Below, one piece after another: positions 3,474 to 32,855 of a stretch of 41,645 nt of DNA. The stretch covers positions 1-41,645 of the forward strand of contig CAMAWP010000019.1 of assembly GCA_945861765.1 (NCBI GenBank), written 5' to 3'. Made by a program: the position numbers and the translations under genes. The first letter of the stretch is position 1, and each line of letters opens with the position of its first letter. A model generated the notes under the pieces. The model was not told where the DNA came from. It worked only from the letters and a program-made list of their open reading frames with translations, and ran no database searches. The DNA is from Akkermansia muciniphila. Lineage in GTDB: Bacteria; Verrucomicrobiota; Verrucomicrobiia; Limisphaerales; SIBE01.

Positions 3474-3478
3474 GTTAC

Positions 3479-4951: not shown

Positions 4952-5151
4952 GCCAAACCGAAACAAGTCTGAGGCTTCGGACCCGTCCTCGGCATCGAGG
5001 ATGCGCAAGCCGGCTGGGCCGCGGAACAACTTTGCTCCGAAGTCCCGTCAAGGGTTTGGCCCGAGCGTGCGTGCGGCCGCAATTCTGCCAGCGCCCACTT
5101 TCGCGGACAAAGATCACCGCGGCGCCGGTGCGATTTTGGAGAGGCGCGAAG

Positions 5152-6462: not shown

Positions 6463-6529
6463 ATGCGAAGGGCGCACAACGCGAGGGCTCCGTCGGCCTT
6501 CAGCGACCCTTGATGACAGACACGGAACC

Positions 6530-13246: not shown

Positions 13247-16200
13247 AAATGAACTCTTTCAAATTGAACAACGACTGTGCGAAGTCACGCCAGACTTGTG
13301 GGTCGTTGCCAAGGCCGTGTTCACGGGCCAGGTCTGCCAGATAGGCGCGGCTTCCGGCCAGTTCCGCGTCGGTTGGCAAACGGGCCAGGGCCTCCTCGAA
13401 CATCCGGCGCACACGGGCCTCGGCGTCCGCGGTGTCACGCAGCGCGGAATCGGCCCACTGTGCCGACAGTTCGAGGATGAACGGGTCGTTCAGCAGCGCG
13501 AGCGATTGCGCGGGAACATTCGTCGTGTCGCGACGGCCGAGCGTGCTAAACGGCTTGGGCGCGTCGAACGTTTCGAGGAATGGACTCAGGAAATTCCTTC
13601 GGATGGTCAGGTAAACGCTGCGCCGCCTTTGCTCAGCGGGCGGGGCCAGCGCGTTGCCGCCAGGACCGAACATGGTGGGATCAAGCCGCCCACTCACCGC
13701 GAGGAGACTGTCGCGGATCGCTTCAGCTTCGAGCCGGCGCATGCGCGTATGCGAAAGCAGTTCATTGCCCGGATCGATTTCCTGCGCGCGCGCCGGCCCT
13801 TCGCTCGACATCTGGTAGGCCCGTGTAGTGACGAGAAAGCGGATCAAATCCTTGAACGACCAGCCCCTGTCCACGAACCGTGTAGCGAGAAAATCGAGTA
13901 ATTCGGGATGCGACGGCCTGTCGCCCAGGTGCCCGAAATTGTCCACTGTCGCGACCAACCCGCGTCCGAACAGGTGGTGCCAGACGCGATTGACCATGAC
14001 GCGAGCAGTCAGCGGATTGGCGGCGTTGGCCAGATCGTTGGCCAGTTCGAGCCGGCCACTGAGCCTGGTCTCGTAAGGACGGCCGGAGACCAACCGCACA
14101 TAAGCGCGCGGGATTGGCTCCATCGGCCGCGTGTGATCGCCGCGCGAGAGGAGCGGCGCATTGTAGCCGGCGGTCTCCAGGACACCGGGCGCGCGACGCG
14201 GCAACGGAATCTCCGCCTCAAGACGCCGGTACTCAGCCACGAGTGGGGCGAGCGCCGGCAGTTCCTTCAGAGAAACCGGCAGCAATCCGCCGCGCAGGAA
14301 CGCGTCGAGGAACACGCGCTGATCCTCGTTGAGTGAGTCGCTTCGCCAGGCGGCCACCGCTTCCGTCAGTTCCCCTCCGATGCCTCTGGCAAACTCCTCC
14401 GGCGACTTCGGAAATTCACCTCGCAGGAGGAGGGTCAGCGGGGTTGCCTCGTCCTTCGGCGGCGCCTTGCCATCGTGGAAGACGACACGTTCGACGCCGA
14501 AGAACGAGCGCCCGCCTGGGCCCGGCGTGGCACGGTCGCGTGCGCTCACGTCCTCGGCGGTCGCGAATTCCAGATACGCCATCGAACCCTTGCGATACGC
14601 GGTGTCGAGCCGCACCCACGTGGGCGCGTCACTGTTGAGCGCTGACTGCGGGAAGATGTTGCCGCTGCCCAGCGGGTAGTTGTCCGTGATCAACCGCACA
14701 CGCGCGCCTTTGCCGCCGAGCGCGCGGACGCTGATGCTGTCGCTCTCGACCTTGAAGCGCGGCGAGGTGAATATCCCGTTATGCTTTTGCGACAGGCGGT
14801 GACTGAAAACCCCCGCGGGCCACAGCCCGGTCAAGACGCGGTCGCCTTCCGGTTCGAGGGAAAAATCGCCAGGCCGCGCGACGGCTTCGGGCGGATTCAA
14901 CCCGTGCTGGAACCAATGGCTCGCCTCGTCGCCGCTCAGATCCCACGCCAGCTTGAACGGGGCGGCATTGAACTTCTTCCGCTCCCACAGTTCGTCCACA
15001 TGTTTCTTTGTGAACGCTTGCCCGCCGGATGAGTAAGCCTCCCCGGACTTATCACGCAACTGAAACCAGACATTCAGCGGGTGGTTCTCGCTGCTCGCCG
15101 CGGCCTCGAACGCGGCCAGCATTCGGTTGCGTGCGGCGTCGCGTTGGGCGTAGTCGGGAAATTGGTTCGCCAGGGCGGCGCGCTCGAGTTCGATCTCGGC
15201 GAGCAATCGCGCCTTTTCCTCGCGCTCGTCCGCGGTCAGCGCCGCCGCGATCTCGGCGGGCGAAACCAGTCCAGGGCCGGCACGGAACGAGTTGGCGATC
15301 TCGTTCGTGCCGAGCGGGCGATCGTAGAGCCGGGCTTCTTCGATTTCGCCGGCCAGGAACGGATTGCCGCCGCCAGTATGCCGCATCCCGAAGAGCACGC
15401 GCGCGGACTTCGCCTCGAAAGTTCGCAAGGTGTCGCCGACCGGCGTGTAGGGCGAACCGTAGGGCGCGCCGTTGCGGAAAAGAGCAATGCTGTTGTCCGC
15501 GCGATAGACGATCGCCAGATGGACCAACTCTTCGGATTTGCTCGTTTCAGCCGGCCCATTCGCGCTTCGGGTGCGTCGGAATCCATCGCTGCCGGCCATC
15601 CATTTCCGCGACTCCTGCTCGGCGAAGACGATGGCGTCGAACACCCCGCCGTTTGCCGACTCGACGCTGAGCGCACCGCCTCCACGCTGTTCGAGATTCG
15701 CCAGCGCGACCCAAACTTCGAGTGTCTTCTCACGGAGCGCGCGTTCCAATAACTCCGTGCGGACGAAGGCGCCTTTGCCGTCCAGGATAAGCCGCCCATT
15801 GCGGATGACCGCGCCGCCCTGGAGTTGGCCGTGCAAGCCTCCGAGAGAGTCGCGCGCATCGCCATCGAACGTCCAGGCGGCCATCGGCGTGACCGCACTT
15901 TCGCTCGCGTTCGCGACATCCCGTGTTCGCAGCACGGCGGCCCGGCCCGCGGCATTGATCTGGGTAATGCGACGTTCCAGGCCCTGGATGCGGTCTCTGA
16001 TTTCGTCACCGGCCATGGGCAGTCGGTTGGTCGCGCCGTGGCTCAGCGACGCGAGAAGATGCTCGGACAGTTGGCTCGCGGATTTGGCCCAGGCGTCGGC
16101 GATCCCGGTCTTGAGGACGCTTTTCAATTTCTCCAACTCGTCGCGATGCACTCGCAGCCGTTCCGGCGTGTCGATGGTCACCTGCGCCGGCCGGCAGCTT

Positions 16201-17090
16201 GCGAAGATGCCATGGAGGGCATAGTAATCGCGCTGACTGACAGGGTCGAACTTGTGGTCGTGGCAGCGGGCGCACGCGATGGTGAGGCCTTGGAATGCCT
16301 TGGAGACAGTGTCGATCTGGTTCTCGACCGTCTTGACCTGTTCATCAAGCGTGTCCACGGGCTGAAACCCATGCTCAACCAGGCGGAGATGCGCGAGGCC
16401 CAGCAGGGATTCATTAATCCCATCGGCTTTGTTCCAGCGTGGCGCCGGCAGCAGATCGCCCGCGAGATGTTCGCGGATGAGTTGGTCGCACGGCACGTCC
16501 GCGTTGAAGGCGCGGATGAGATAATCGCGATAGCGCCACGCATTCGGGATTTCCGGATCGCCCTCGCTGCCGTGCGTCTCGGCGAAGCGCACGAGATCCA
16601 TCCAATGCCTTGCCCAGCGCTCACCGAAGTGGGGAGAAGTGAGCAGACGGTCCACCACCTTCTCGCAGGCGTTGAGCGAAAGGTCCTCAACGAATGCACG
16701 CACCTCCGCCAGCGTCGGCGGGAGGCCTGTAAGTGCGAATGTAACGCGCCGGAGGAAAGTCCGCTTGTCCGCCGGGGAAGCCGGCGCCAATCCGCGCTCC
16801 TCCATTTTCGCCAGGAGGAAACGATCCACGGGGTGATCAGACCAAGCCGCGTTTGCGACGGACGGGACGGCTGGTTTCAGAATGGGCTTGAAACTCCACC
16901 AATCCTTGCGCTCGGAAAAGATCCCATCCCAAGCTCCGTCCTCCGTCGCGGCGATCGCCGGTGTCTGATCAGAGCCAAGTGGAACCGGATCCAGATTCCT
17001 TTGACCGGCAAACGTGGCCAGAGCCGTCAGAATGCAGATCGAGCCGGCCACCAGGATGAGAATATTCCGACATTTTGACGGGGTTTGCAT
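13236..17090 (-). CDS. DUF1549/LamG/DUF1553 protein lacking the N-terminal cytochrome
   Basis: This protein of about 1284 residues starts at the ATG at 17090, followed by a hydrophobic export segment ([20 protein letters not shown]). The open frame continues to 17360, but that part runs through an intergenic palindrome and is not credible. There is no N-terminal CxxCH cytochrome domain. DUF1549 begins near residue 85 ([13 protein letters not shown]), with the internal CxxCH motif [12 protein letters not shown] near 273. A LamG/concanavalin-like domain (about 395-605, [15 protein letters not shown] to [13 protein letters not shown]) and a further beta-rich stretch sit between DUF1549 and DUF1553 (from about 1020, [13 protein letters not shown]). 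LamG domains usually bind glycans, which suggests but does not prove a polysaccharide target. It is paired with the overlapping DUF1501 gene. Confidence 0.9.
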
Positions 17091-17109
17091 CCAGGAACCT
17101 TTTAACGAT

Positions 17110-17171
17110 CCCCTCACCCGCCCTCCGGGCACCCTCTCCCCATCGGATGGGGAGAGGGGCGGGGTGAGGGG
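17110..17171. repeat. Long imperfect palindrome, CCCCTCACCC type
   Basis: The outer arms CCCCTCACCC (17110-17119) and GGGTGAGGGG (17162-17171) and the inner arms CTCTCCCCATC (17134-17144) and GATGGGGAGAG (17146-17156) make a nested hairpin of about 62 bases. It looks like a dispersed intergenic repeat. It also shows that the open frame upstream of 17090 is not coding. Confidence 0.75.
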
Positions 17172-17457
17172 GGCTCCGGCTCCGTCAAGGCTCATGGGCG
17201 GGAAGTGTGCCGAACTGCTGAGATGCCGGCGCGAGGCTAAAGGCGGAAGAGGATCGATCATTTTCTTACACGATGAGCGTAAGCCCGGCGGAGACGGGGG
17301 GTGCTGTCTGGTTTTCATGGTTTGGAATGTGAGCATGATTGCCAAAGACCATTTCCACAATTCTCTTTTTGACGGAGCCCTGAATTTCGGCCTGATTCTG
17401 ATTCCATATTTTGGATTCCATCAGCAATTCTTTCGGACTGCGCGCACTTCGTGATCC

Positions 17458-17519
17458 GTTTGGAGTCCTGGCTTTAGCCGGCTTTCACGCGCCAACCGGC
17501 TAAAGCCGGGACTCCAAAC
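17458..17519. repeat. Long hairpin, GGAGTCC-GGCTTTAGCC type
   Basis: Two 24-base arms (17458-17481 and 17496-17519) pair at 23 of 24 positions around a 14-base loop. The core is GGCTTTAGCCGG and the outer part is GTTTGGAGTCC. It resembles a dispersed REP-like element; a terminator or attenuator role for the gene at 17596 is possible but less likely. Confidence 0.75.
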
Positions 17520-17595
17520 CTGCCCTAATGAGAATTGCTGGGATTCCATACTTTGGATTGCCATGAGCTCGCAATTTGGAGATAATAAATTTCTT

Positions 17596-18936
17596 ATGTT
17601 GAAAATCATGGGCAAATCGATGGGTCATTTTTGCGACGGGCTTTCACGGCGGGACTTCATGCGGATCGGAGGTCTGGCCCTGGGGGGACTTTCTCTCCCG
17701 CAATTGCTCGAGGCGGAGCAGCGCTCCGGCATTCGCAAGTCTCACAAAGCTGTCATCATGATTTACCTGGTCGGCGCGCCGCCTCATCAGGACATGTTCG
17801 ACCTGAAGATGGACGCGCCCATCGAAATTCGCGGACCGCACAAGCCGATTTCCACAAATGTGCCGGGCATCCAGATTTCCGAGCACATGCCCTATTGCGC
17901 CCGGATCATGGACAGGCTGGTGCCCATCCGCACTATGTATGGCTCCCCGAACGGGGACCACGATTCTTTTATTTGTTACACGGGCCGGCCGGTGCCGAAG
18001 CAGCCGCCAGGCGGGTGGCCATCTCTGGGTTCGGTGCTCTCGAAGCTCCAAGGCCCGTCCGAGCCGATGGTTCCCGCCTTCGTAGGTCTGGCGCCCAAGG
18101 CGGGGCATCCGCCCTACGGTTCCCCCGGACATCCCGGTTTTCTCGGTCCCGCCCACTCCGCTTTCCGCTCAGGCGGCGCAGGGATGCAAGACCTGAAACT
18201 CAATGAGATCTCGCTCGACCGCCTGCAGGATCGAAAGGCGCTGCTGGCCGGCTTCGATCAGTTTCGCCGCGAGATCGACCACAGTGGTCTCGTCGAAGGC
18301 ATGGACGCCTTCAAGCAGCAGGCCTTTAACATCCTGACCTCGAGCAAACTGATGGAAGCATTCGATTTGAGCAGTGAACCCGCGAAGGTGCGGGAGCGCT
18401 ATGGCAAGGGCGATTCGAGGAATTACGGCGACGGTGCGCCGCGCAATTGCGAGCATTTTCTGATCGCCCGCCGCCTGGTGGAAGCAGGCGCCCGTTGCGT
18501 CACCCTCAACTTCGGACGCTGGGATTTCCACAGCAATAACCACAGCGAGTTGCTCACGCATCTGCCCTTGTTTGACCAGGCCATGAGCGCGCTCGTCGAG
18601 GATCTTCATCAGCGCGGCCTGGACAAGGACGTGGCGGTGGTGGCTTGGGGCGAATTCGGGCGCACACCGCAGATCAACCCAGACGCCGGTCGCGATCATT
18701 GGCCGCAGGTCGGTTGCGCTTTGCTCGCGGGCGGAGGCATGAAAACCGGCCAGGTCATTGGCGCGACGGATCGCCTCGGCGGAGCCATTGAGTCGCGCGG
18801 CGTCCATTTCGGGGAAGTCTTCGCCACGCTGTATCACCAACTCGGCATCGACACGAGCCGCGTCACAATTCCTGACCTGTCTGGCCGTCCCCAATATCTT
18901 GTGGACGGCTGGCAGCCGATGCCGGAATTGGTTTAG
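17596..18936 (+). CDS. Tat-exported DUF1501 protein without an adjacent DUF1549 partner
   Basis: This DUF1501 protein has about 446 residues from the ATG at 17596. Starts at 17563, 17608 and 17620 also retain the twin-arginine motif LSRRDFMRIGGLALGG; 17596 was chosen for a GGAGA 13 bases upstream, which is only modest support. It differs from the other three copies in its first core motif (IYLVGAPPHQDMFDLKMDAP) and is shorter. The C-terminal part keeps WGEFGRTPQINPDAGRDHW and GQVIGATDRLGG. No DUF1549/DUF1553 gene lies next to it on the same strand; the nearest one is divergent, across a 0.5-kb gap, and already has its own partner. Function is otherwise unknown. Confidence 0.9.
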   Translation: MLKIMGKSMGHFCDGLSRRDFMRIGGLALGGLSLPQLLEAEQRSGIRKSHKAVIMIYLVGAPPHQDMFDLKMDAPIEIRGPHKPISTNVPGIQISEHMPYCARIMDRLVPIRTMYGSPNGDHDSFICYTGRPVPKQPPGGWPSLGSVLSKLQGPSEPMVPAFVGLAPKAGHPPYGSPGHPGFLGPAHSAFRSGGAGMQDLKLNEISLDRLQDRKALLAGFDQFRREIDHSGLVEGMDAFKQQAFNILTSSKLMEAFDLSSEPAKVRERYGKGDSRNYGDGAPRNCEHFLIARRLVEAGARCVTLNFGRWDFHSNNHSELLTHLPLFDQAMSALVEDLHQRGLDKDVAVVAWGEFGRTPQINPDAGRDHWPQVGCALLAGGGMKTGQVIGATDRLGGAIESRGVHFGEVFATLYHQLGIDTSRVTIPDLSGRPQYLVDGWQPMPELV

Positions 18937-19019
18937 CGCGGGTGAGAACTCCTGGTGTGTTGGGCAGGCATTGGGACCGCCTCCTTGGGCCGAGCGCGGG
19001 TCGGTGGACCAGACTTGAC

Positions 19020-20582
19020 TTAAGCGAAAACCGCCTGGATCACCTGGCCATGCACGTCGGTCAGCCGCCGCTCGAAGCCGTTGTGATAGTAGGTGAGGCG
19101 TTCGTGATCGAGGCCGAGCAGGTGGAGGATGGTCGCATGAATGTCGTGAACGGTGACGACGTTCTCCGCCGCCTTGTAGCCGAATTCGTCGGTCGCGCCG
19201 TAGCTGAACCCTTTTTTCACACCCGCGCCGGCGAGCCAGCAGGTAAATCCGCTCGGGTTGTGGTCGCGGCCCTGTGCGCCCTTCTGGAAGGTCGGCATGC
19301 GGCCGAATTCGGTGCACCACACTACCAGGGTGTCTTCGAGCAAACCGCGTTGTTTGAGGTCGATCAGCAGGCCGGCCGTCGGCTTGTCGAGCACGGGGCC
19401 GTGGAGGCTGTATTGCTTGAAGAGATCCTTGTGGCCATCCCAGTTGCTCACGCCTTCGCCGCCGGTCTGGTAGGCGCCGTTGAAAAGCTGCACGAAGCGC
19501 ACGCCCTTTTCGATGAGGCGCCGGGCGAGAATGCAATTGCGCGCGTAGGCGGCGCGAAGCTCGTTCACCTTCGATCCGCCTTCATCCGCGCCATAGAGGC
19601 GCAGGATGTGAGCCGGCTCGGTTGAGAGGTTGGCCACTTCCGGAACGGTCAACTGCATCCGGGCGGCTAATTCATAGCTCGCGATGCGCGCGGCCAATTC
19701 GCTGTCGCCAGGGAAGAGCTCGGCGTGACGCTCGTTGAGGCGCAGAAGAAAATCGCGCGTCGCGGCGTCGGTGCCGCCTGCGATGGGACCGGGCCGGGCC
19801 AGGTTCCGGATGGGATTGGTGGCATTGAAATCGGTGCCTTGAAAGGCTGCGGGGAGAAAGCCCGGCGCCCAATTGTTGACGCTGTTCTGCGGCTTGCCGC
19901 GCGGATCGGGAATGGCCACATAGGCCGGCAGGCTTTGGTCCTCGCTGCCGAGCGCATAGGTCACCCAGGCGCCGACGCTCGGGAAGCCATCGAGTGTGTA
20001 GCCGGTGGACATGTAGTTTTCGCCGGGACCATGCGTGTTGGTCTTCCCCTGCATCGAATGGACGAAGCACAAATCGTCCACGAGGGCGCCCAGGTGCGGC
20101 ACGAGATCGGAAACCATCTTGCCGCTCTGACCGCGCGGACGGAATTCCCAAGGGCTTTTGGACAACGCCCCTTGCCCGCCTTGGAACGTGATCAGTTTCT
20201 CGTTTCCGGGCATGGGCTGGCCGTGGCGGCGGATCAGCTCCGGCTTGTAATCGAACGTGTCGAGGTGGCTGCATGCGCCGCTGCAAAAGATGACCAGGAC
20301 GTTCCGGGCCCGAGGGCTAAAGTGCGCCGCCCTGGGCGCGTAAGGCCGCCCCGGTTGGAAGGAAGGACGCAACGCCTCTTTCCCCGACACGTTTGCCGCG
20401 AGCAAACCCTGGCGTCCCAGCAAGTGCGTCAAAGCGATGGCACCGAGGCCCAGGGCGGCGTCGGCGAGGAAACGGCGGCGGTTCAGCAGGGGATGAGAGC
20501 CGAAGGCTGAACCAGCCGCTTGTCTCAATGCTTCCCGCGCGGCTCCTGACCCCTGCCCTGTGACTTCTGCTGGCTGCTTCAT
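19020..20582 (-). CDS. Tat-exported DUF1501 protein
   Basis: This is a 520-residue DUF1501 protein. The ATG at 20582 overlaps the TGA of the upstream gene as ATGA, a strong coupling signal; the open frame farther upstream lies inside that gene. The Tat signal is [20 protein letters not shown]. Core motifs are [56 protein letters not shown] and [18 protein letters not shown]. It is the last gene of the minus-strand unit that begins with the pseudopilin at 24403, and the partner of the cytochrome/discoidin protein. Confidence 0.94.
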
Positions 20583-23530
20583 GGAATGAACAAAAACTCG
20601 TTGGCGTTCAGCACGGCCCGGCAAAGCGCGGGCAAACCGTGTTCCTCTGCGAACGGCACGGCGCTCTCCGCTTCCGCACGCCCTGGCGCCCGGTTGAAGG
20701 CCAGTTGCCACGCCAGTTGCACCTGGGCTCTGAGATCCCGTCCGGCCTCCTTTTTAAGCCGCTCGGAAAACTTTTCGGACTGCTGAATGACGAACCGGCT
20801 ATTGAAGAGATTCAACGCCTGCAATGGGGTCGTGGACACGCTGCGTCTGGGCATGACGAGACTGCCGTCGGGACAATCGAACGCGCCAAAGATGCCGTCC
20901 TGCTCCATGCGGACCTTGAAGGCGTAAACCATCCGGCGCGATTCAGCCGCGCTGAAATCCTCCTTGGGGTGGTAGTGATAAACATTTTCGCGATCCACGT
21001 TGTGAAGGAAAAAACCCGGCCCCCCGGCGGTGCGGTCGAGGTTGCCGCTGACGGCGAGGATGCTGTCCCGGATGGACTCGGCCTCGAGTCGGCGCGGCGG
21101 GAAGCGCCAGAGCAAACGGCTGCCGGCATCCACACTCAAAGCTTCTGCGCGCGGCGCGCTTGATTGGCGCCACGTTGCTGAGGTGAGAATCCGTCGTTGC
21201 AGCGCTTTGACGCTCCAGCCGCGCGCGATGAATTCGCTGGCCAGCCAGTCGAGCAACTCGGGATGCGAGGGCCGCGCGCCGTTCTTCCCGAAGTCGTTGG
21301 GCGTGTCCACGAATCCGACGCCGAAGTGGTGCTGCCAGACGCGGTTGACCCAGACGCGGGGCGTCAGCGGATTTTCCGGGCTGGTGATCCAATCCGCCAG
21401 TTTCAGGCGGCGCTCCCGCTCCGGGGTATTCGTAGTCAGCGTGAGCGGCTGGAACACGGCCGGCGTGCCGGGCGCTACCGTTTCGCGCTGCTGCATCGGG
21501 TCGCCACGGTCAAGCCGATAGGTGGCGCCGGGCTGAGTGAACTTGCCGGCATAGACCATCGGCGGCTTGGCCAAAGAGTCGCGCCGCCCGCGCGCTTCTT
21601 CAAGTTCGGCCAGCCACTTTCTGGCTTGTTCGGCTTCCGCCACGGAGGCGCTTTCGAAGCGATACACCGGACCCGTTGGCTTCGCAGCCTTGCCGGTGAA
21701 GGGTTCGCGGTCATCGGAACTCGCCACTTGTTGCCACGTGTTGAAATCGCGAGCGGCTTCGATTCGATACTTCGTCGCGAGGCGGTCGCCAAATGCCCCT
21801 TCGCGGTCGCGGCCCCACACGACGCGTTCGAGGCGCTCCACCTTCGGGAACTCCAACTGCACCCAGCCGCGTCCGCCTTCATTGGAAATCCAGGACCAAC
21901 TGTTCCCGAACTTGCCGTCGTTGAGATGTTCCAGTTTGTGAATCTCGAACCCGGACAGCGTGCCTGAGGCGGTGGCCTTCGCGCCAGCGCTCGCCAAAGC
22001 GGCGTTGCGGCCGCCAGCCCAGACTTCCAGTTCATCCAGGCATGGCTCGCCGGAATTCGAGGCGAGCACCGTGAAGCGAACGAACTTGGCTTCGACGGGC
22101 GCAAGGATTTCCTCGTTTTGCCGCGCGTTGACCGGCGGGCGCAGCGCGCCGGGAGTGGGGTTGTTGGCGGCGCCCGCCGTGGAGGGTTTGACGAGGAAGG
22201 GCGCCAGCCGGCGCTCCAGTTTTCCGATGGCGCCGTCAAGTTCTGCCAGCCGCGTCTGGTCCTCGGATGGGATGGGCAGCGCGCGTTCGCCATGTTTCAC
22301 GCCCGCGAACAAGGCGGCCATGGAGTAATACTCTCGATGCGCGATGGGATCGAACTTGTGCGAATGACAACGGGCGCAGCCGAGCGTGAGACCGAGAAAG
22401 GTTGTGCCCGTCGTGCCGACCATGTCGTCGAGTTCGTCCGCGCGCTGCTGTGCGGTCAGCACGGGGTCGGGACTGCCCACAATGTCCACCGGGCCGCCGA
22501 CGAGGAAGCCGGTGGCCACGTCCACGCCCAGAGCGTCGCCGGCGAGTTGCTCACGGACGAACACGTCGTAGGGCTTATCGTCGTTGAAAGCAGCGATCAC
22601 GTAATCGCGGAATCGCCACGCGTTGGGACGCTCGCGGTTAGTCTCGAACCCGTTGCTCTCCGCGAAGCGAATCACATCGAGCCAATGGCGACCCCAGCGT
22701 TCACCGTAGCGTGGGTCATCGAGCGCCTTGTCCACCAGACGCTCGAAGGCGTCCGGCCTGGCGTCGGTCACGAAAGCCGCGACCTCTTCCGGAGCCGGAG
22801 GCATGCCGAGCATGACGAAGTAGAGCCGGCGGATGAGCGTGACACGGTCGGCTTCGGGCGAGGCGGTCAGTGCTTTCCCGGCCAGCTTGGCGGTGATGAA
22901 CGCATCAATCGGGTTCGCGACAGGTGAAGTGTTTGGCACTGAAGCGGGTGCCAGCGGGCGCACGACGGGTCGAAACGCCCAGTGCAATGCCGCGGGATCC
23001 GCCTCTCCACGCTTGCCCTCCGGCCAGGCGGCACCCTGATCGATCCATGCGCGCAGCAAGGCAACCTGTTCAGACGAGAGACGTTTGCCTTCCTCCGCCG
23101 GCGGCATAACGATTTCCTTGTCCAGACCGGCGACAAACCGGATGAGCGGGCTCTCGGCGCTCTGGCCGGGGATGATGGCCGGCGCGTGATTTTCGCCGCC
23201 GCGCAGAGCGGCGCCCCTGCTGTCGAGCCGCAATCCGCCTTTCTGCTTTTCGAGTCCATGGCAAGCATGGCAATGCTTTTGGAGAATCGGTTCGATGTCT
23301 CTGACGAAATCGACCGTCGTTCCGGCCGAGGGCGCAAGCGCGGGGCGGTCAATGTCTCCAACACCGGCGATGAGGCAGAAGCCGGTCGCCCAACTCAAGC
23401 AGCCCAACGTCCGGATGACGATAATCGTCCGGTCGAGCGTTGAACTTCGGCCGCCACGAAGAGCGGCGCCGACGAGGGTCGAGTGGTGTTGTGTGGTCAC
23501 GTTCAACCTCTGGAGTCTGGCCTGCAACAT
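20579..23530 (-). CDS. Cytochrome/DUF1549/discoidin/DUF1553 protein
   Basis: This 983-residue exported protein has a hydrophobic segment at about 35-57. An N-terminal cytochrome domain has heme motif CHACH at residues 87-91. DUF1549 (about 145-400) includes the second CxxCH ([12 protein letters not shown], about 385). A discoidin/F5-8C-like module spans about 473-610 ([54 protein letters not shown]). DUF1553 runs from about 715 ([18 protein letters not shown]). The discoidin module is strikingly close to the one in the sensor kinase gene of the same locus, including the LRPPV lead-in. ATG at 23530 is the only Met start; a GTG at 23500 would also retain the signal region. The pseudopilin gene ends 12 bases upstream and the DUF1501 gene overlaps by 4 bases, so the three form one unit. 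Confidence 0.92.
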
Positions 23531-23542: not shown

Positions 23543-24403
23543 TCAGTCTTCCCGGATGGAAGCACGCTCTGACATAAAGACCATATCAAGGTTTCTGGGC
23601 GAAGGAACGACCAAGGGCATCGACTGATTCTTCACCGGTTGCCTGGTGCGCGGATCCAGCCACTTGTGAACTTCAGCGTGTCCATCCGCGAAGCTCAACC
23701 CCCCCGATCCATTGTGAGTGCTGGCGGGATAATCGATAATGTAAATCCGCGTGGGCGCCACGCCGTCGTTCATGGCGACTGCAAAATCGCCGAAGTTGAT
23801 GCCGTCGGGATGTTCGTCAATGAACACATAGGCTTTTGACGGGCCCATGAGCGTGATGTCAGACGACTTGCGGAAGACGCGGTATTTCTTCTGGGTCAGG
23901 TAGTGCAGCCAGTCATTCCGTGAATTCATCGCCTGGCTCAAGGAAATGCTGCGCACGCGCGGATAGGGCCGGCCGTTAATGATGACTTTGCTTGGATCGG
24001 CCGGGCACTTGTAGATGCCCGTTGCCTGCGTGTACGGCCACAGCTTCGCATAATTCGGATCTTTCAGGTAAAGAACATTCGTGTTGTGTTCGTTCTTCGG
24101 ATCATAATTGATGATGCCCCGGACCCAGCCGGCGCGTTTGTCTTCCATATCGTTCCAAACCAAATTATCGCTGAAATCATCCGCGTACATGATCCACCCC
24201 AAGGTCAACTGCTTCATGTTGCTCAGGCACTGAATTCCCTGCGCTTTGGTCTTGGCCTTGGAAAGAGCCGGGAGCAGCATGCCGGCCAGGATCGCGATGA
24301 TCGCGATCACGACCAGGAGCTCGATGAGCGTGAAAGCGCCGAACGCAGTGCGAGATTGGGGAGTGAGCTTGGTTTTACAGGCGGGGAATTGGGTAGTGCT
24401 CAT
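23543..24403 (-). CDS. H-X9-DG prepilin-like protein
   Basis: This 286-residue protein starts at the ATG at 24403 (24430 is an alternative). It has a type IV prepilin/pseudopilin N-terminus, [20 protein letters not shown], followed by the amphipathic helix [21 protein letters not shown]. Near the C-terminus is the H-X9-DG signature, [12 protein letters not shown], typical of the very numerous verrucomicrobial and planctomycetal prepilin-like proteins. These are probably processed by a prepilin peptidase and displayed by a type II secretion-like machine; their individual roles are unknown. It leads the operon with the cytochrome/discoidin and DUF1501 genes, and a palindrome (24522-24537) lies about 118 bases upstream. 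Confidence 0.92.
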
Positions 24404-24521
24404 AGGAGAATACGCGGCAGGTTCAACCACAGGGTTAGAGTCGATTACGACATCGTTAAGGTTGAGGTTCTCATTTCTTGTTCACCGCCAGGCAAGATAT
24501 CGCAACTCGGAGCATTAACAA

Positions 24522-24537
24522 TCCCCCGTTTGGGGGA
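24522..24537. promoter_or_regulatory. 7-2-7 palindrome, candidate response-regulator operator (site A)
   Basis: TCCCCCG-TT-TGGGGGA is a near-perfect inverted repeat with two 7-base half-sites and a 2-base centre. It lies 118 bases ahead of the pseudopilin start, between that gene and the end of the response-regulator gene. Read on the minus strand, the right half is followed by TTGTT, and the second copy (32840-32855) is followed by TGGTT. The NarL-family assignment is inference from geometry. Confidence 0.6.
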
Positions 24538-24626: not shown

Positions 24627-25256
24627 TTATTTGCTGTAGTATTTGCAGGCGGCGGCGGTGCGAGACCGGACGTGCAGCTTATCATAGATGCTCTTCAAAT
24701 GGGAGCGAACCGTCTCCACGCTCACCGAAAGGAAATTGGCAATTTCTTTGTTGATGTAGCCTTTAGCCACGTAGGCCAGAACCTCCTTTTCGCGCTTGGA
24801 AAGATTCTCGGATTCCTTTGGGGAAGGGCCTTGCTTTTGAAAGGATTGGGCCACTTTGCGCGCCACACTGCTCGACATCGGTGCTCCGCCCCGGGTCACT
24901 TCTTGGATGGCCTTCAAGATTTCATCCGGCGGAGTGCGTTTTAACAGATAGCCGCTGGCGCCAGCTTGCAGAGCACGGAAAACCTGATCGCTGTCGTCAT
25001 AGACCGTCAGCATGACAATCTCCAGTTTGGGCAGGATGTCCTTTAGGCGTTGCACGCACTCGACCCCGGACATGCCTGGAAGATTGATGTCCATCAGCAC
25101 CGCGTCCGGCATTTCTTTTGGAATCCCGGCGAGGGCTGCCTCCCCTGAGGAATAAGAGCCGAGACAACAAAAGCCGCTGGCCTCATCGACCACCCGGGCC
25201 AAGGCCGTTGAAATCCGTGGATCATCCTCGACGATAGCGATGCGAATAGACATCAA
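24627..25256 (-). CDS. NarL/LuxR-family response regulator
   Basis: This 209-residue response regulator is of typical length. Receiver domain: acidic pocket E10-D11-D12, phosphoacceptor D56 (MDINLPG), T84 and K106. C-terminal LuxR-type helix-turn-helix at about 151-205 (LSKREKEVLAYVAKGYINKE, VSVETVRSHLKSIYDKLHV). Its start overlaps the end of the kinase gene by 4 bases (ATGA), so the two are a cognate pair. NarL-type regulators bind 7-2-7 inverted repeats, and two such palindromes lie upstream of the units on either side, which makes this protein the obvious candidate regulator. ATG codons at 25256 and 25253 are both possible starts. Confidence 0.96.
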   Translation of the reverse strand: MMSIRIAIVEDDPRISTALARVVDEASGFCCLGSYSSGEAALAGIPKEMPDAVLMDINLPGMSGVECVQRLKDILPKLEIVMLTVYDDSDQVFRALQAGASGYLLKRTPPDEILKAIQEVTRGGAPMSSSVARKVAQSFQKQGPSPKESENLSKREKEVLAYVAKGYINKEIANFLSVSVETVRSHLKSIYDKLHVRSRTAAACKYYSK

Positions 25257-28200
25257 GCAACCGGATGCAGCGATGGATTGAGCTGGAGCACGAGTCTAAT
25301 TTTTGTCCCCTGGCCGGACGCGCTCTCCACCTCCAACTTACCCCCGGCCTGTTCCAGCCGTTTTCTCATGTTGGGCAAGCCGTTGCCGGGAGCGGGCCGC
25401 AAAACTTGCTGCGCATTAAAGCCGCAGCCATTGTCCTCGATGGCGATGGAAAAGATACTCTCTTGCACCGACAATCGAATCCAAACCTCAGATGCCCCTG
25501 AATGTTTGACGATGTTGTTCAGGGCCTCTTTCACTGTCAGGTAGAGGTTGTGACGAACTTCCGCGGTAAGCGCAATTTCGGGCAGCAGCGTCGGCACATC
25601 GATACGACAACGGATTGGAGTAAAACGGAGAAATTCCACAGCGAATTTCGGGAGATAATCTGCCAATTGGTCGAGCGTGTCGTTCTTGGGATTGACGGCC
25701 CAGACGATGGCTTCCATGGTTTGGACAATCTGTCGTGCGCCGGTGGAAATCTGCCGAAAGTTCGCTTCCACATAGCGGGGAGCGGCGCTGTTTTTTTGGC
25801 CGAGATCGCTGAGGAGCGAAATCTGTGTCAGGCCGGCGCCCAAGTCGTCATGAAGGTCTCGCGCGATGCGGGTGCGCTCCTTTTCCAAGCTATGCTGGCG
25901 TTCGAGTCGTTCTAATTTGGTTTGGAGGTTTTTCCACACGATATAGCGGGCGGCGCCACCCAAGGCGGCGACAGTGGCCAGACCCGCGAAGCAAAGGAAC
26001 CACCAAGTTTTCCAAAACGGCGGAAGCACGATCAAGCCAAGCGAGGCGCCGGTTTCATTCCAAACGCCATCGTTATTGCTGGCCGTCACCCGGAAACGAT
26101 ATGGGCCGGCCGGCAGATGCGTATAGACCGCCGCCCGGCGTGTGCCACTCTCAATCCAAGTCTTGTCCAAACCTTCCATCCGGTACTTAAACTTGATCTT
26201 CTCAGGAGCGACAAAGCTCAGCGCTGTATAACGGAATTCCAAGCGTTGAACTCCAGGCAGAATCCGGATCGGATGGGACAAGATGGGAGGTTGGAGATCA
26301 GAGGCTGCCTCTGGGCGCAGTTCTCCGTCGATCAACATCTCCTCGATGACCACCGGCGGCAACGATTCATTCAGGGTGATATGTCTCGGGTCCACTCTCA
26401 CCACCCCCTTGACCGTGGAAAACCAGAGTGTGCCATCGCTCGCCTTCAGGCCCGCGGGATGAAAGCCGCCGGTGCATTCCAGACTCTCCATTCCTTCGTC
26501 TTTGCCGTACGAGACGGGATGCACAGAGGAAATCCTCCGGTCGGCCACGTGCAAGAGGTCCTGTTTTTTGATGCGGCTAATTCCCTGATTGGAGCCGAGC
26601 CAAAGGTGGCCTTGATCATCTTCGAGGATCTGCGAAATCACATTATCGATCAACCCCTGGCGAGTCGTTATGCTAAGGAATTGTCCCCCTTTCCAAAGAC
26701 TTAACCCGCCACTGGTGCCGATCCACAGAGTTTTTTCGGCATCCCAATAAAGCGTTCGGACAAAATCGCTGGCCAGCCCATCCTTGCGCGTGCAGGCAGA
26801 AAACTTCCCATCAGTCAGGCGATTCAAACCACCGCCGCTGGTGCCGATCCAGATTGTTCCGGGGCGCTCTTCGATAATGGCCGTGACAAAGTTCGCAGAC
26901 AAACCCTCTTTGGCGCCGTACTGCACGAATGCTCCGTCGCGAAAGTAATTCAGTCCTCCGGCGTAAGTGCCAATCCACAGCCCGCCCGACGAGTCTTCGC
27001 AAAGGGCCGCAATCACGTTGTCGGAAAGCCCATCGGCTTTCACGAAATTGACGATCTTGTCTCCGGTTTTCTGAAACAACCCGCCGCCCCAAGTGCCGAT
27101 CCAAAGACGGCCTTGCTGTCCCGCACACACCGACCAGATACATTCGTTATCGAGCAGATAGTTCACGTGATAAGGCGCAAAAACGTCGTGACGCCAAAGA
27201 TTCAATCCGCCGCAGTTCGACCCGATCCAGACCTGTTTCTCGTGATCCTCGGCTAAAGACATCGCCACGTCGTGCGACAAACCGTGGCGCGTGGTGAAGG
27301 TGGACAGCTTTTTCGCTTTGAGCCGGAGCAATCCGCCGCCGTTTGTTCCGACCCAAATGTTTCCTTCCCGATCTTCGAAGATGGAGGTCACGGAGTTGTT
27401 GGACAAACCTTCCTGAGTGGTAAAAACGGTGAACTTCCCGTCGCGCAGCCGGCTGAGTCCGCCCGAGGCTGTTCCCACCCAAACGTCGCCGTTGCGGGCC
27501 TCAAAGATTTCCCAAACCATGTCCGGCAACAAGCCGTGCTCCTTCCCAAAGACCGTCGCCTGTCCGTCCTTCATGCGCGCCACGTAGCCATTCGCCCCGC
27601 CGATCCAAACGCTGCCGGAGAATCCTTCGTGAAGGGAAGACAACGAGCTGAAACGGGCCGGCTCACCTTCAAAAGGCGGGACGGTCTCCCGGCCCTCTTT
27701 CAAGAGACTCAGGGTTGCCGTGAGGACCCAGAGATTGGCGGAACGATCTGCGCAAATCCGATAGACCGCGCGGGAGGCCAGTCCAAAGTGGTTGCGGTCT
27801 TCGATGATTTGTCCGTTCCGCAGGCAGTTCAAGCCGGAGGCAGTTCCAACCCACAAGTTGCCCGCGCTATCTTCCGTCATCGAGAGGACCACGTTGTCCG
27901 ACAATCCTGCGCTGGCGGTGTAGGGGGTGAACTGGCCGCCACGGTAACGGATCAAACCTCCTCCTTCTGTACCAATCCAGAGCGCTCCGGCGCGATCTTC
28001 GTACAAGCAGACAATGCGAGGATTGAGGAGTCCTTGAGCTTCTCCAAAAACGACAAACCGAACTCCGTCAAAGCGGACCAAACCGTTAAACGTGCCCAGC
28101 CAAAGATAACCATCCCGCGTTTGCAGAATGGCTCGGATCGTGTTGCTCGGTAGCCCATTTTCCGTTTGCCAGACATTGAAAGTGTATTCTCCGGAAACCG

Positions 28201-28297
28201 ATACGGAATCGTCCGGCGCGAGTGTGGTACCGACGGGCGCGAATCGATTCACAGTTATACGCTGGCCTGGATTGACGCCAAAATACTCCGCGCCCAT
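25253..28297 (-). CDS. Propeller-type sensor histidine kinase, main part
   Basis: This is the frame-intact part of the kinase, 1014 codons from the ATG at 28297, which probably is not the true start. Order: about a dozen Reg_prop blades (for example GNIWVGTNGGGLLRL, GTIWIGTSGGGLNRL), a Y_Y_Y domain (LEFRYTALSFVAPEKIKFKY), a transmembrane helix (WWFLCFAGLATVAALGG), a HisKA_3 dimerisation domain with phosphoacceptor H816 (RIARDLHDDLGAG) and a HATPase domain (EALNNIVKHSG, EDNGCGFN, GNGLPNMRKRLE). This is the architecture of kinases that sense extracytoplasmic polymers in Bacteroidetes and PVC bacteria. Upstream of 28297 the same frame continues meaningfully (DWKLVASSADRKPLE) and links to the discoidin segment at 28352-28952 after removal of one base. 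It overlaps the response-regulator gene by 4 bases. Confidence 0.94.
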   Translation of the reverse strand: MGAEYFGVNPGQRITVNRFAPVGTTLAPDDSVSVSGEYTFNVWQTENGLPSNTIRAILQTRDGYLWLGTFNGLVRFDGVRFVVFGEAQGLLNPRIVCLYEDRAGALWIGTEGGGLIRYRGGQFTPYTASAGLSDNVVLSMTEDSAGNLWVGTASGLNCLRNGQIIEDRNHFGLASRAVYRICADRSANLWVLTATLSLLKEGRETVPPFEGEPARFSSLSSLHEGFSGSVWIGGANGYVARMKDGQATVFGKEHGLLPDMVWEIFEARNGDVWVGTASGGLSRLRDGKFTVFTTQEGLSNNSVTSIFEDREGNIWVGTNGGGLLRLKAKKLSTFTTRHGLSHDVAMSLAEDHEKQVWIGSNCGGLNLWRHDVFAPYHVNYLLDNECIWSVCAGQQGRLWIGTWGGGLFQKTGDKIVNFVKADGLSDNVIAALCEDSSGGLWIGTYAGGLNYFRDGAFVQYGAKEGLSANFVTAIIEERPGTIWIGTSGGGLNRLTDGKFSACTRKDGLASDFVRTLYWDAEKTLWIGTSGGLSLWKGGQFLSITTRQGLIDNVISQILEDDQGHLWLGSNQGISRIKKQDLLHVADRRISSVHPVSYGKDEGMESLECTGGFHPAGLKASDGTLWFSTVKGVVRVDPRHITLNESLPPVVIEEMLIDGELRPEAASDLQPPILSHPIRILPGVQRLEFRYTALSFVAPEKIKFKYRMEGLDKTWIESGTRRAAVYTHLPAGPYRFRVTASNNDGVWNETGASLGLIVLPPFWKTWWFLCFAGLATVAALGGAARYIVWKNLQTKLERLERQHSLEKERTRIARDLHDDLGAGLTQISLLSDLGQKNSAAPRYVEANFRQISTGARQIVQTMEAIVWAVNPKNDTLDQLADYLPKFAVEFLRFTPIRCRIDVPTLLPEIALTAEVRHNLYLTVKEALNNIVKHSGASEVWIRLSVQESIFSIAIEDNGCGFNAQQVLRPAPGNGLPNMRKRLEQAGGKLEVESASGQGTKIRLVLQLNPSLHPVA

Positions 28298-28952
28298 TTC
28301 CAGCGGCTTCCGGTCCGCGGAAGATGCGACCAGTTTCCAATCCCCCCCATGCCTCGGCCACTTCGATTTTGTACTCCGTCACCAGCCGGTCGATGAACTT
28401 GCTTTCCCGGTCCCGGCCCCAAACTACCTTATTGATGTTTTCGACTGCCGGCAATTCGATGACCACCCAACCTTTGCCTGCTTCGTTTGAAATCCAACTG
28501 CGTCCGTTGCCGTAAACACCATCGTTGATGTGTTCCAGCTTGTGAATCCCGTATCCTGGCAAGGTGCCTGAGGCAGTGACTTTTCCGCCGGCCCTGGCTA
28601 GAGCGACGTTGCGCGGTTCTGGATTCGCCGTGAAGATTTCCAGCTCGTCCAGGCAAGGCTCGCCCCGGTTTGTCTTGAGAATCGTGAAGCGAACAAACCT
28701 GGCGTTAACTGGAGGAAATTCATCGACGTTCCGGCGCGAGTGAACTGGCGGACGCAAGGCCGTGGTGAAGTTGGAGCGACTGCCGCTGTCGTTGGTTCCC
28801 ACCAGGGAACGCTCAGCAAGATTCTTAGAATCAGGCCCAGCAGCTTGCATCTGCGGAAGCAAAACGCAGATCACGCTCGCGCCGAGGAAAGGGAGATGCA
28901 GAGTTCGCCAAACGCCCGGCCATTCTCTCTTTGTTTCATGGGTGGCGAGCAT
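28086..28952 (-). CDS. N-terminal discoidin part of the sensor kinase, separated by a frameshift
   Basis: From ATG 28952 the frame encodes an N-terminal export segment (LHLPFLGASVICVLLPQMQAAG) and a discoidin-like module: ARFVRFTILKTNRGEPCLDE, GIHKLEHINDGVYGNGRSWI and [19 protein letters not shown]. Just after YKIEVAEAWG it meets a run of seven G (28342-28348 as C on the plus strand). Beyond that the literal frame gives Arg-rich sequence and stops at 28086. Dropping one G continues into GDWKLVASSADRKPLE and then the propeller kinase frame; the paralogous module at 21.7 kb has [14 protein letters not shown] at the same point. The intact gene would be about 1232 codons, 25253-28952. Either the sequence has an indel error or the gene is frameshifted in this strain. 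Confidence 0.85.
   Translation of the reverse strand: MLATHETKREWPGVWRTLHLPFLGASVICVLLPQMQAAGPDSKNLAERSLVGTNDSGSRSNFTTALRPPVHSRRNVDEFPPVNARFVRFTILKTNRGEPCLDELEIFTANPEPRNVALARAGGKVTASGTLPGYGIHKLEHINDGVYGNGRSWISNEAGKGWVVIELPAVENINKVVWGRDRESKFIDRLVTEYKIEVAEAWGGLETGRIFRGPEAAGNGRGVFWRQSRPAYNCESIRARRYHTRAGRFRIGFRRIHFQCLANGKWATEQHDPSHSANAGWLSLAGHV
28342..28348 (-). other. G7 homopolymer at the kinase frameshift
   Basis: Seven C on the plus strand (G on the coding strand) lie exactly where homology switches frame between the discoidin segment and the propeller segment. A six-base run would fuse both frames. Confidence 0.8.
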
Positions 28953-29222
28953 CAAGAGCTTCTTATGCCGTTTTGAAAACTTCGAATCAAGCTCTGGCGC
29001 GTTGAGAATCCTTTCCGGGCGCGTCAGCAAATTGTCGCCACCGGCGGGCTTTCCGGCTGCGGTCCAAGCCGACATCCTCTCACCCGAAGCCTTTTGGAGC
29101 GCGGGGGAAGCGAAGCGCGGCACGGCTTTGGGCGCTCTGGACCCGTGCCGGCAAAGCCCCAGTCAATGGGCCGTCGCCACTCCGCTCTGTCGGCGCGCTC
29201 CCAATTGCGGGATAAAGGCCGC
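28953..29222. other. Gap upstream of the kinase gene
   Basis: These 270 bases lie between the five-repeat gene and the kinase. The minus-strand frame of the kinase stays open to 29123, but the residues are low quality. I see no TCCCCCG-type palindrome and no clear promoter here, so the kinase may be read from its own unseen promoter or through from the five-repeat gene. Confidence 0.5.
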
Positions 29223-32200
29223 CTATTGGCGCACACGATAGAACTTCACCGTGCTCGGACCTCTCGACACCGTTTGAGGGCTTGCGTTCGCGCCCGCCAC
29301 ATCGGTCCAAGGGCCGGTCACTGAATCCGCTGATTGAAGCGCTCCTGAACTGGTCCAGGAGATGACGAGGCTGCTCCCTTCTCGGCGGACACTCAGCACC
29401 GGACGGGCCGGAGCGGCGCTGAACACTTCGATTTCATCGATGCAGATTCCAACGTCTGAAGTCTTAAACCGCAGCCCGGTAGCCTGAATTGGGCCGCCGG
29501 CCGCCACGACCTCGAAACGATGCCTCAGCCACGGCTCAAAATCAGGTGCAGAAGCGCTTTTGTACTCAACGCTCCCGATCGTCGCCCACCCAGTTGCAGG
29601 ATTGCCTGTCTCGGCCGTATCCATTCCAGGATTCGCCACGGTGGTCACTTGCAAGGTGTAAACGCCACCCCACCGATCCCTCAATTGTCCTCCACAACAA
29701 TCTCCAGGATTATTTCCGTTGTCCCGTCCCCAGGCAATGCCGCCGATCGAAAGCACCTTTCCAAAGTTCAACCCGATGGAAGGCTTCGGATCAGGGATCC
29801 GGAAATCGGCAATCCAGCTCTTGCTATTGCCATAAAGACCATCATTAACGTTGTTGATGAGATGGATGCCTCCTCCATCATATTCGCTGGTGCCGAAAGG
29901 GGTCACCCCTTTGCTGGCGAGAGCCAGATTATCCGGCGCTGCCGCCCCTTCCGCCTCACTGTAGAAGTCTCCGTCATTTCCATCCCAAGTGATCGAATAT
30001 CCAGACTGGCTCTTGATCTCTAAGAGATCTCCCTCGTCCGCCAGGCTGACGTTCACCTCGATTTCGTCGATGGCCAGTGTCGGGTCGGACACTTTAATCC
30101 GCAGGCCAGTCGCCGGTATGGGATTTCCCCCCGCGCTGACATCAAACTTATGTCGCAAGTGAGGAGTGAAGCGAGCGTCCTTTTCGCCGGTGTATTCGAT
30201 CGTGCCCAGAGTAACCCAGCCGTTGGCCGGGTCATTGCCCTCGGTCATCGTCACGCCTGGGTTAGCCGCCGTCGTGATCTGGAGCGTGTAAATCCCCACG
30301 GCCCGATCCGCCAATTGCCCTCCGCAACAATCGCCCGCGTTGTCGCCGTTATCCCGGCTCCAGGCAATACTTCGGAGCGGAATGGTTTTGCCGAAGCTTA
30401 AGCCAATGAAAGGATTGGGGTCGGCTGGCGCCGTGAATTTCGCGATCCAACTATGACTGTTTCCGTAAAGCCCGTCGTTGATATGAACAATGCGGTGAAC
30501 TCCCGCGCCGAACTCACTGCTGCCAAAAGCCGCGGTCCCTTGGCTGGCCAAAGCCACGTTTTGCGGGGCGCGGGCCGGCGAATTCGTGTCATAAAACTTG
30601 CCGTTGTTCCCGTTCCAGGTGATGGAGTATCCGGCAGCTTTCTGAATGATCACCGCAGCCCGCGGCACACCCGACGGATTGACTTCGATCTCATCGATGC
30701 AAGTTGCGCTACTGGAAACTTTGATGCGCAAGCCGGTGGCCTGAATCGGATTGCCGCCCTTGGCCACGCTATAGCGGTGCCGCAGCCATGGGTTATAATC
30801 AGGCGGCGCCTGCCCGCTGTAGTCCACCGTGCCAATCGTCGCCCAGCCCGTCGCGGCATTGCCGGTTTCGGCAGTGCCGGCGCCGGGATTGGCAACCGTC
30901 GTTATCTGCACCGTGTAGGTCCCCTGCCACCGGTCTCTGAGTTGTCCGCCACAACAATCCCCCGGGTTGTTTCCATTGTCTCGGCCCCACGCAATGTCGC
31001 TAATGGAAATGATCTTGCCAAAGTTAACTCCGATGAAATCGCCCAGCGACGAATCCACACTGGGATCCACTTGCTGCGGGCCGGGAATCCAACTTTTGCT
31101 ATTGCCATAAAGCCCATCGATCACATTGTCGATATCGTGGATCGAGCCGTCGGCGAAGAGCTGTCCGCTGCCAAATGCTTTCGCGCCATTGGCCGCCAGG
31201 GCCGCATTGGCGGGTGCGCTGGCGCCTGGATTCGGACTGAAGAAATCGCCATCATTGCCATCCCAGAGGATGGAGTATCCGGGATCGCTCGCAATGGTCA
31301 CAAGGCCATCTGCCAGCGCTTGGAGGCCCGCATTCACATTGACTTCAATTTCATCGATGGCAGTTCCAGCCTCGGGCACCTTAATGCGGAGGCCGGTGGC
31401 CACGATGGGAGCGTCGCCTTGGGCCACATTGAAAAGATGCCTGAGATGAGGCTGCAAAGACGCTCCGGCACTCTTGTAATGAATTGTTCCGAGGGTGACC
31501 CATCCCGTGACCGCGTCGCCGGTCTCGGCTGTCTCTTTGTCGGGATTAGCCGCTCGCGTTACTTGCAAGGTATAAACACCCAGCGCGCGATCCGCCAGTT
31601 GGCCGCCACAGCAATCGCCCGCGTTGTCCCCATTGTCCCTGCTCCAAGCAATGTTCTTTATCTCAATCTTCTCGCCAAAATTCAGGCCGATAAAAGGGTT
31701 CGGGTCCGCTGGAGCGGTAAACTTGGAGATCCAACTATGGCTGTTCCCATAAAGCCCGTCATTGACGTTCGCGATAAGGTGAATTCCAGCGCCAAATTCT
31801 GTGCTGCCAAAAGGCTTCGTCCCAGTACTGGCCAGGGCCCGGTTGGCGGGCGCCCGCGCCGGTGAATTCGTGTCATAAAACTTACCGTCGTTCCCATTCC
31901 AACTGATGCTGAAGGTGGGGGCATTCGTGATGACGATAAAGTTTGAGATCGGTGGTGTCGGATCCGCCGGGGGATTCACTTCGATTTCGTCAATGCAAAT
32001 CCCCCCATCTGAAACTTTGATCCGCAGACCAGTGGCTGAGATGGGGTTCCCGTCTGCCAACACCTCGAAGCGATGTCGAAGGTAAGCACTGAAAAGAAGG
32101 CCGTCTGCGCCCGCCTTGTACTCAACCGTTCCGATCGTAGCCCAACCCGTGGCTGAGTTGCCGGTCTCCGGACTGTCGGCGCCAGGATTGTTGGCACGGG

Positions 32201-32741
32201 TCACTTGGAGTGTATAGATCCCGACCGCGCGGTCGGTGAAAGGGCCGGCGGGAGTGCGTTCTGAGTTGTCGCCGTTGTCTCGCGACCAAGCGACGCTGCT
32301 GATGGAGATTGATTTTCCAAAACTTAATCCGACAAAAGCGTTTCTGTCGGGAATCCGGAAATCGGAAATCCAACTGGAGCTGTTTCCGTAAAACCCATCG
32401 TTGACATTCACAAAATCATGAATCCCGCCCGGAAGAAAAGCCGTGCTTCCGAACGGTGTGACCCCTTTGCCTGCGGAAGCCAGATTATCCGGCCCCTTGG
32501 CGCCGGATTCGGGGCTGCTGTAGCCTCCGTTGTTGCCGTCCCAGGTAATGGAATAGCCGGCCTGCGCTGTAATGACAACGCGGTCGCTTTGCGCTTGTGC
32601 CGGCCCGAAGCAGCCGACTGCCAGCAAACCCGCCGCCAACCATGGCTTCAGGTGAATCGGAAACCGGAGGGGCTTCGAACTCTTGGCCGAGGTTTGAGCA
32701 GTTCTGGAAACTGACGAGCCGAACAATTTGGTTGTGATCAT
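29223..32741 (-). CDS. Secreted protein with five discoidin-like repeats
   Basis: This protein has about 1172 residues from the ATG at 32741; three more in-frame ATGs upstream (32750, 32759, 32774) include two 9-base direct repeats, so the start is uncertain. A signal peptide (LKPWLAAGLLAVGCFGPAQA) is followed by five repeats of about 205-215 residues. Each has a SITWDGNDG-type opening, a NVNDGLYGNSKSWI core, an IAWGRDNGNN strand, a TGWATIG strand and a CIDEIEV ending. Repeats 2-5 carry a vicinal Cys pair (GDCCGGQL); repeat 1 lacks it. The C-terminal 60 residues (SSGALQSADSVTGPWTDVAG, ending KFYRVRQ) match the common verrucomicrobial C-terminal sorting-like domain. Binding to a glycan or surface ligand is inferred from the discoidin-like fold. 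A palindrome lies 98 bases upstream. Confidence 0.92.
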   Translation of the reverse strand: MITTKLFGSSVSRTAQTSAKSSKPLRFPIHLKPWLAAGLLAVGCFGPAQAQSDRVVITAQAGYSITWDGNNGGYSSPESGAKGPDNLASAGKGVTPFGSTAFLPGGIHDFVNVNDGFYGNSSSWISDFRIPDRNAFVGLSFGKSISISSVAWSRDNGDNSERTPAGPFTDRAVGIYTLQVTRANNPGADSPETGNSATGWATIGTVEYKAGADGLLFSAYLRHRFEVLADGNPISATGLRIKVSDGGICIDEIEVNPPADPTPPISNFIVITNAPTFSISWNGNDGKFYDTNSPARAPANRALASTGTKPFGSTEFGAGIHLIANVNDGLYGNSHSWISKFTAPADPNPFIGLNFGEKIEIKNIAWSRDNGDNAGDCCGGQLADRALGVYTLQVTRAANPDKETAETGDAVTGWVTLGTIHYKSAGASLQPHLRHLFNVAQGDAPIVATGLRIKVPEAGTAIDEIEVNVNAGLQALADGLVTIASDPGYSILWDGNDGDFFSPNPGASAPANAALAANGAKAFGSGQLFADGSIHDIDNVIDGLYGNSKSWIPGPQQVDPSVDSSLGDFIGVNFGKIISISDIAWGRDNGNNPGDCCGGQLRDRWQGTYTVQITTVANPGAGTAETGNAATGWATIGTVDYSGQAPPDYNPWLRHRYSVAKGGNPIQATGLRIKVSSSATCIDEIEVNPSGVPRAAVIIQKAAGYSITWNGNNGKFYDTNSPARAPQNVALASQGTAAFGSSEFGAGVHRIVHINDGLYGNSHSWIAKFTAPADPNPFIGLSFGKTIPLRSIAWSRDNGDNAGDCCGGQLADRAVGIYTLQITTAANPGVTMTEGNDPANGWVTLGTIEYTGEKDARFTPHLRHKFDVSAGGNPIPATGLRIKVSDPTLAIDEIEVNVSLADEGDLLEIKSQSGYSITWDGNDGDFYSEAEGAAAPDNLALASKGVTPFGTSEYDGGGIHLINNVNDGLYGNSKSWIADFRIPDPKPSIGLNFGKVLSIGGIAWGRDNGNNPGDCCGGQLRDRWGGVYTLQVTTVANPGMDTAETGNPATGWATIGSVEYKSASAPDFEPWLRHRFEVVAAGGPIQATGLRFKTSDVGICIDEIEVFSAAPARPVLSVRREGSSLVISWTSSGALQSADSVTGPWTDVAGANASPQTVSRGPSTVKFYRVRQ
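29420..32590 (-). repeat. Five tandem ~640-bp coding repeats in a 1-B-C-B-C order
   Basis: Approximate repeat spans, in coding order: 31960-32590, 31330-31950, 30670-31315, 30040-30655 and 29420-30025. Repeats 2 and 4 share FYDTNSPARAP, FGAG and FTAPADPNPFIGL; repeats 3 and 5 share AWGRDNGNNPGDCCGGQLRD and TTVANPG. The alternation indicates duplication of a two-repeat block of about 1.3 kb. Confidence 0.8.
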
Positions 32742-32839
32742 AAATGTCATAAATGTCATCCGTCCCCGCCCCATGCTTCACGTGGAGCCTCATTCACCGA
32801 AATTGCTCTACTCCTAGCAAGAAAGAGGAAGCGAAACCA

Positions 32840-32855
32840 TCCCCCGTACGGGGGA
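32840..32855. promoter_or_regulatory. 7-2-7 palindrome, candidate response-regulator operator (site B)
   Basis: TCCCCCG-TA-CGGGGGA is a perfect 16-base palindrome with the same half-sites as site A. It lies 98 bases ahead of the start of the five-repeat gene. On the minus strand it is followed by TGGTT, similar to site A, which hints at a wider oriented motif. Confidence 0.62.

Follow-up and report, generated by a model that had tools for sequence, protein, structure and literature searches.

The heptamers recognized by NarL follow the consensus TACYYMT. At the yeaR and ogt promoters of E. coli, NarL sites with a 7-2-7 layout abut the -35 element and activate transcription from there, the centre being at -44.5 in ogt, and a single NarL site suffices at yeaR (PMC7419079). 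The locus described here, which lies in a window of 41,645 nucleotides (the whole stretch of DNA that was analysed), resembles these promoters in its two 7-base inverted half-sites, separated by a 2-bp spacer, with one site abutting the -35 region, and in a regulator of the same receiver and GerE build. The -10 element of ogt, TATCTT (PMC7419079), is also the one predicted for the first of our two sites. Nevertheless, the half-site is TCCCCCR here, which departs from the NarL heptamer consensus while keeping the layout, the predicted regulon is local, with two operons, whereas that of NarL is global, and the kinase carries a propeller sensor instead of being of the NarX/NarQ type. VraR-type regulators (7ve6) share the receiver and the LuxR-type helix-turn-helix over their whole length, and differ in kinase type and target genes, and presumably in operator. 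A Reg_prop/Y_Y_Y architecture, as in the kinase found here, is typical of the sensors of Bacteroides hybrid two-component systems. In such systems for polysaccharide loci (e.g. PMC11253607), the sensor adjoins the surface or carbohydrate-type genes that it is thought to control, as is the case here, whereas our locus encodes the kinase and the regulator as two proteins, the regulator having a DNA-binding domain of the NarL/LuxR type. A NarL-type regulator acting through a 7-2-7 operator in class II position is of a kind already known. We found no description of the half-site, the regulon, or the order-wide arrangement presented below in the open-access papers searched, a limited library, and a literature search for Verrucomicrobia operators of this kind returned nothing relevant. 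The features of the locus are as follows.

19020..20711, minus strand: DUF1501 protein, third in the operon behind site A
20579..23530, minus strand: PSCyt1/PSCyt2/PSD1 protein into which an F5/8-C-like domain is inserted, second in the operon behind site A
23543..24405, minus strand: prepilin-like protein (N_methyl), opening the operon behind site A, start ATG 24405-24403
24494..24499, minus strand: predicted -10 element TATCTT, at 22 bp from site A, with a predicted transcription start near 24487
24521-24516, minus strand: -35-like element TTGTTA of site A
24522..24537, minus strand: site A, putative operator TCCCCCAAACGGGGGA, predicted centre -42.5
24627..25256, minus strand: response regulator, receiver and LuxR/GerE DNA-binding domain (Pfam; VraR and NarL structures), proposed binder of both sites
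25253..28297, minus strand: sensor histidine kinase (Reg_prop propeller, Y_Y_Y, HisKA_3, HATPase), ATGA-style overlap with the regulator gene
28086..29123, minus strand: ORF with an F5/8-type-C-like (discoidin-like) domain, in a frame other than that of the kinase here
29223..32774, minus strand: 1183-aa secreted-type protein, opening the operon behind site B and consisting of some five repeats that are related to the F5/8-C-like domain
32811..32816, minus strand: predicted -10 element TAGGAG, at 23 bp from site B, with a predicted transcription start near 32804
32840..32855, minus strand: site B, putative operator TCCCCCGTACGGGGGA, perfect palindrome, predicted centre -43.5

The initial annotation had reported sites A and B, each followed on the coding (minus) strand by TNGTT, with no further full match in the window. 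Both 16-mers are indeed found at these coordinates, the following bases are TTGTT at site A and TGGTT at site B, and neither the rest of the window nor the remainder of the 7.27 Mb genome holds another full match. A genome-wide motif scan returns the exact pattern TCCCCCNNNNGGGGGA at two places, sites A and B, which lie 8.3 kb (8.32 kb) apart, one before each operon of a single cluster, and which are both intergenic, rather than the motif falling mostly inside genes. The reversed pattern, used as a control, has 0 matches in the same genome. The two sites show the 7-2-7 layout, inverted heptamers with a 2-bp spacer, which reads TCCCCCR-NN-YGGGGGA in relatives; in site A, 6 of the 8 pairs are complementary, namely the six outer ones, and the seventh is mismatched. 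In this genome, the palindrome appears private to the cluster.

Behind each palindrome, at 22 bp (A) or 23 bp (B), occurs a -10-like hexamer, so that the predicted palindrome centres are -42.5 (A) and -43.5 (B). Reckoned from these predicted -10 elements, both sites lie in the class II range (centre near -41 to -45, abutting the -35). The -35-like hexamers are poor (TTGTTA at A, TGGTTT at B), and the weak -10 of site B is preceded by TGC, resembling an extended -10, with TTTCTTGCTA identical in another genome of the same genus (G002). A standard promoter scan at sites A and B gave a sigma-70 match at neither, and throughout the window a TC..GA palindrome is combined with this -10 geometry only at these two sites. 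The alignment with the G002 homologue begins at the residue encoded by the ATG at 24403-24405, which supports this start; the ORF behind site B has possible starts at 32774 or 32741.

The regulator gene, the only one of LuxR type in the window and adjacent to site A as first noted, ends about 90 bp before this site. Its product shows the NarL/FixJ-family build (Response_reg, 4.7e-26; GerE, 2.2e-18; Pfam), with the VraR-type structure 7ve6 as the closest, full-length match and NarL (1a04) at 2e-30. The adjoining kinase contains HisKA_3 and HATPase_c domains with an intact H-box, RIARDLHDD. The two palindromes are very probably the cognate NarL-type operators of this regulator, in class II position and driving both operons. 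The kinase would presumably phosphorylate the regulator, a dimer of which would bind the 7-2-7 site abutting the -35 region, centred at about -42.5 or -43.5, and recruit RNA polymerase as a class II activator. Site B would then drive the operon of the 1183-aa repeat protein, the F5/8-C-like ORF, the kinase, and the response regulator, resulting in autoregulation, and site A that of the prepilin-like, PSCyt1/2-PSD1, and DUF1501 genes. The activation of both operons by the phosphorylated regulator is proposed by analogy with NarL at yeaR and ogt. Four independent tests support the initial annotation, which had taken the palindromes for NarL-type 7-2-7 sites from which the adjacent LuxR-type regulator would activate two promoters: the exact palindrome is unique to these places genome-wide, both sites are kept in place in the sister species G002 and occur beside a 62% identical regulator of another family, the 22/23-bp distance to a -10-like hexamer is repeated across the order, and the operator type follows the recognition helix of the regulator.

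The same sites might instead serve the regulator as repressor sites, for negative autoregulation. NarL-family proteins both activate and repress, and a protein bound at -42 by the -35 region could also block the polymerase, two outcomes that sequence alone cannot distinguish. We nevertheless consider repression improbable, since NarL activates from the same position at both ogt (-44.5) and yeaR (immediately upstream of the -35; PMC7419079), and the -35-like hexamers are as poor as in activator-dependent promoters.

A weaker third match, at 38831-38846, had also been put forward, but it is at chance level, as it has two mismatches, lacks the promoter geometry, and fails the -10 spacing rule. 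Places with up to two mismatches number about 177 genome-wide, giving an expectation of about one per window. A search for the DUF7133 gene in G001 and G002, for comparison of this site, gave only distant or unlinked copies. The one-mismatch places elsewhere in the genome (C78, C125, C147, C383, and C465) were rejected, none combining the palindrome with the -10 geometry. The exact pattern alone was also discarded as a marker across 320 genomes, where 74 have a match, because several of the matches come from repeat-like, CCACTG-centred copies. In the order's other genomes, many exact matches lie more than ~1.5 kb from any related regulator, and a number of them are explained by repeats or chance.

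Both putative operators are conserved in G002, whose regulator is 80% identical. Its 5.7 Mb contain exactly two exact palindromes, on one contig and 8.27 kb apart, at the same two positions, and the gene order between and behind them, as established by tblastn, is the same as here. In pairwise comparison, 15 of 16 letters are kept in each palindrome and 20/29 and 22/30 in the next 30 bp (69-73%), while the upstream flanks keep 7/16 and 8/24 and the leaders 32/79 and 32/75 (flanks 33-44% identity). In G002, site B (L033:5095-5119) has an extra half-site copy, TCCCCCGAATCCCCCGAACGGGGGATT, alongside, making three half-sites in 9-bp steps. In a genome of another family (G042), with the 62% identical regulator, exact palindromes occur directly before and directly behind the regulator gene. 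The gene order differs in G042, yet the palindrome again precedes the same targets: the second copy is followed by the same repeat protein and prepilin as here, and then by an alpha-L-rhamnosidase (L035:2466-12938), the last of which may be a hint to the substrate. A CCCCC-N4-GGGGG motif is also found behind the orthologous regulator in G026, G045, G199, and G307.

We surveyed 120 different LuxR/NarL-type response regulators of the order, inspecting 450 bp behind their stop codons for 7-2-7 TC..GA 16-mers with at least 6 of 7 pairs, and for a -10-like hexamer, TAnnn[T/G], at offset 22 or 23. There are 28 such palindromes, 17 of which have the hexamer at 22/23 bp against ~0.7 expected (background 0.012 per position; P ~4e-21), under a composite rule picked after the first loci had been seen. 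This rule was put to a partly independent test on another 80 named loci, of which 67 had new regulators, and the result was 0.29 composite sites per kb behind the regulator versus 0.003 per kb elsewhere, five of the ten hits behind a regulator coming from regulators already in the first set. When inverted repeats are taken without restriction, gaps of 4, 6, and 8 are all enriched behind regulators; such repeats are confounded by hairpins, and the analysis was therefore restricted to TC..GA sites, with the -10 as an independent test.

Two operator types recur, namely C5, CCCCC-N4-GGGGG (9 regulators), and CCAG, TCMCCAG-NN-CTGGKGA (13 regulators). All 13 regulators with a CCAG site have the recognition helix ETVHTY[IV]RR, and 8 of the 9 with a C5 site have ETV/I-R (Fisher 2.8e-5, relatedness among regulators uncorrected). 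These counts are not independent, and the safer statement is that operator type co-segregates with regulator clade, a single change parting C5 from CCAG on a FastTree phylogeny with many weakly supported branches. The exception is L052, where a C5 site lies between a regulator gene and a prepilin gene, the regulator being 31% identical and having a different helix. Neither type is present within 450 bp behind the gene for 97 of the 120 regulators, so the arrangement is not universal. It is possible, if a little short of probable, that in this Limisphaerales-like order many expanded NarL-type regulators have a private TC-N5-NN-N5-GA operator behind their own gene, at a fixed promoter distance and with letters predictable from the recognition helix. 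The rule of a palindrome behind the regulator gene, with a -10 at 22/23 bp, could help to predict regulons in uncultured members, and helix-predictable operators, if true, would make the regulator-operator code readable in a phylum whose regulation has seen little experimental work. In the CCAG class (L194, L200, L207, L211, L237, and others), the operator is followed by CTGGCAGG and the -10 is usually 23 bp on; the genes behind these operators vary, and the regulators there have ETVHTYIRR helices.

The palindromes could also be read as intrinsic terminators, that is, GC-rich hairpins with a 4-nt loop and a following T-rich stretch that end the upstream collinear gene. Both sites are flagged by a terminator scan, and each lies between two collinear genes. 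This explanation is nevertheless highly improbable, and termination is unlikely to be the main role of the hairpins: there are just two copies in the genome, the letters are conserved between species beyond mere pairing, the T-tract is weak or absent in relatives, where the next 8 bases include 0-4 T for C5 sites and 1-2 T for CCAG sites, and one G042 copy sits between kinase and regulator. Termination also predicts neither the fixed 22/23-bp distance to the -10 nor the tracking of the recognition helix. That two GC-rich palindromes occur here by chance is not credible, given two exact places in the genome and two in G002, and it is also highly improbable that they serve an unlinked regulator. 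The window-only count of the two-mismatch pattern is not unusual (5 found versus 2.75 expected), whereas the probability that two random sites lie within 8.3 kb of each other is only ~0.002, and the palindromes recur at the same positions in G002 and next to the orthologous regulators in other families.

With the palindromes taken as activator sites of the adjacent regulator, the locus appears to be a small surface or carbohydrate-type cluster with a signalling pair dedicated to it, which would switch it on. Verrucomicrobia and Planctomycetes have PSCyt/PSD1 and DUF1501 genes in abundance, whose functions are described as unknown (PMC5615132), and a precise candidate operator and regulator for one such cluster would offer a way to find its inducer. 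Several further PSCyt/PSD1-DUF1501 gene pairs are present in the window (627-7894 and 11792-20711), without an operator of the type of sites A and B. In G002, the F5/8-C-like domain and the kinase form one frame of 1232 aa; here, this N-terminal part of the kinase is out of frame (28086-28360), owing to a real frame shift or to an assembly error. The occurrence of the discoidin-like domain in both the sensor and the targets suggests that both may recognize the same ligand, possibly a glycan. The sensor part and the domain within the PSCyt protein share 59% identity, and the 1183-aa protein has repeats related to this domain, which suggests recent domain copying within the cluster (20579-23530, 28086-29123, and 29223-32774).
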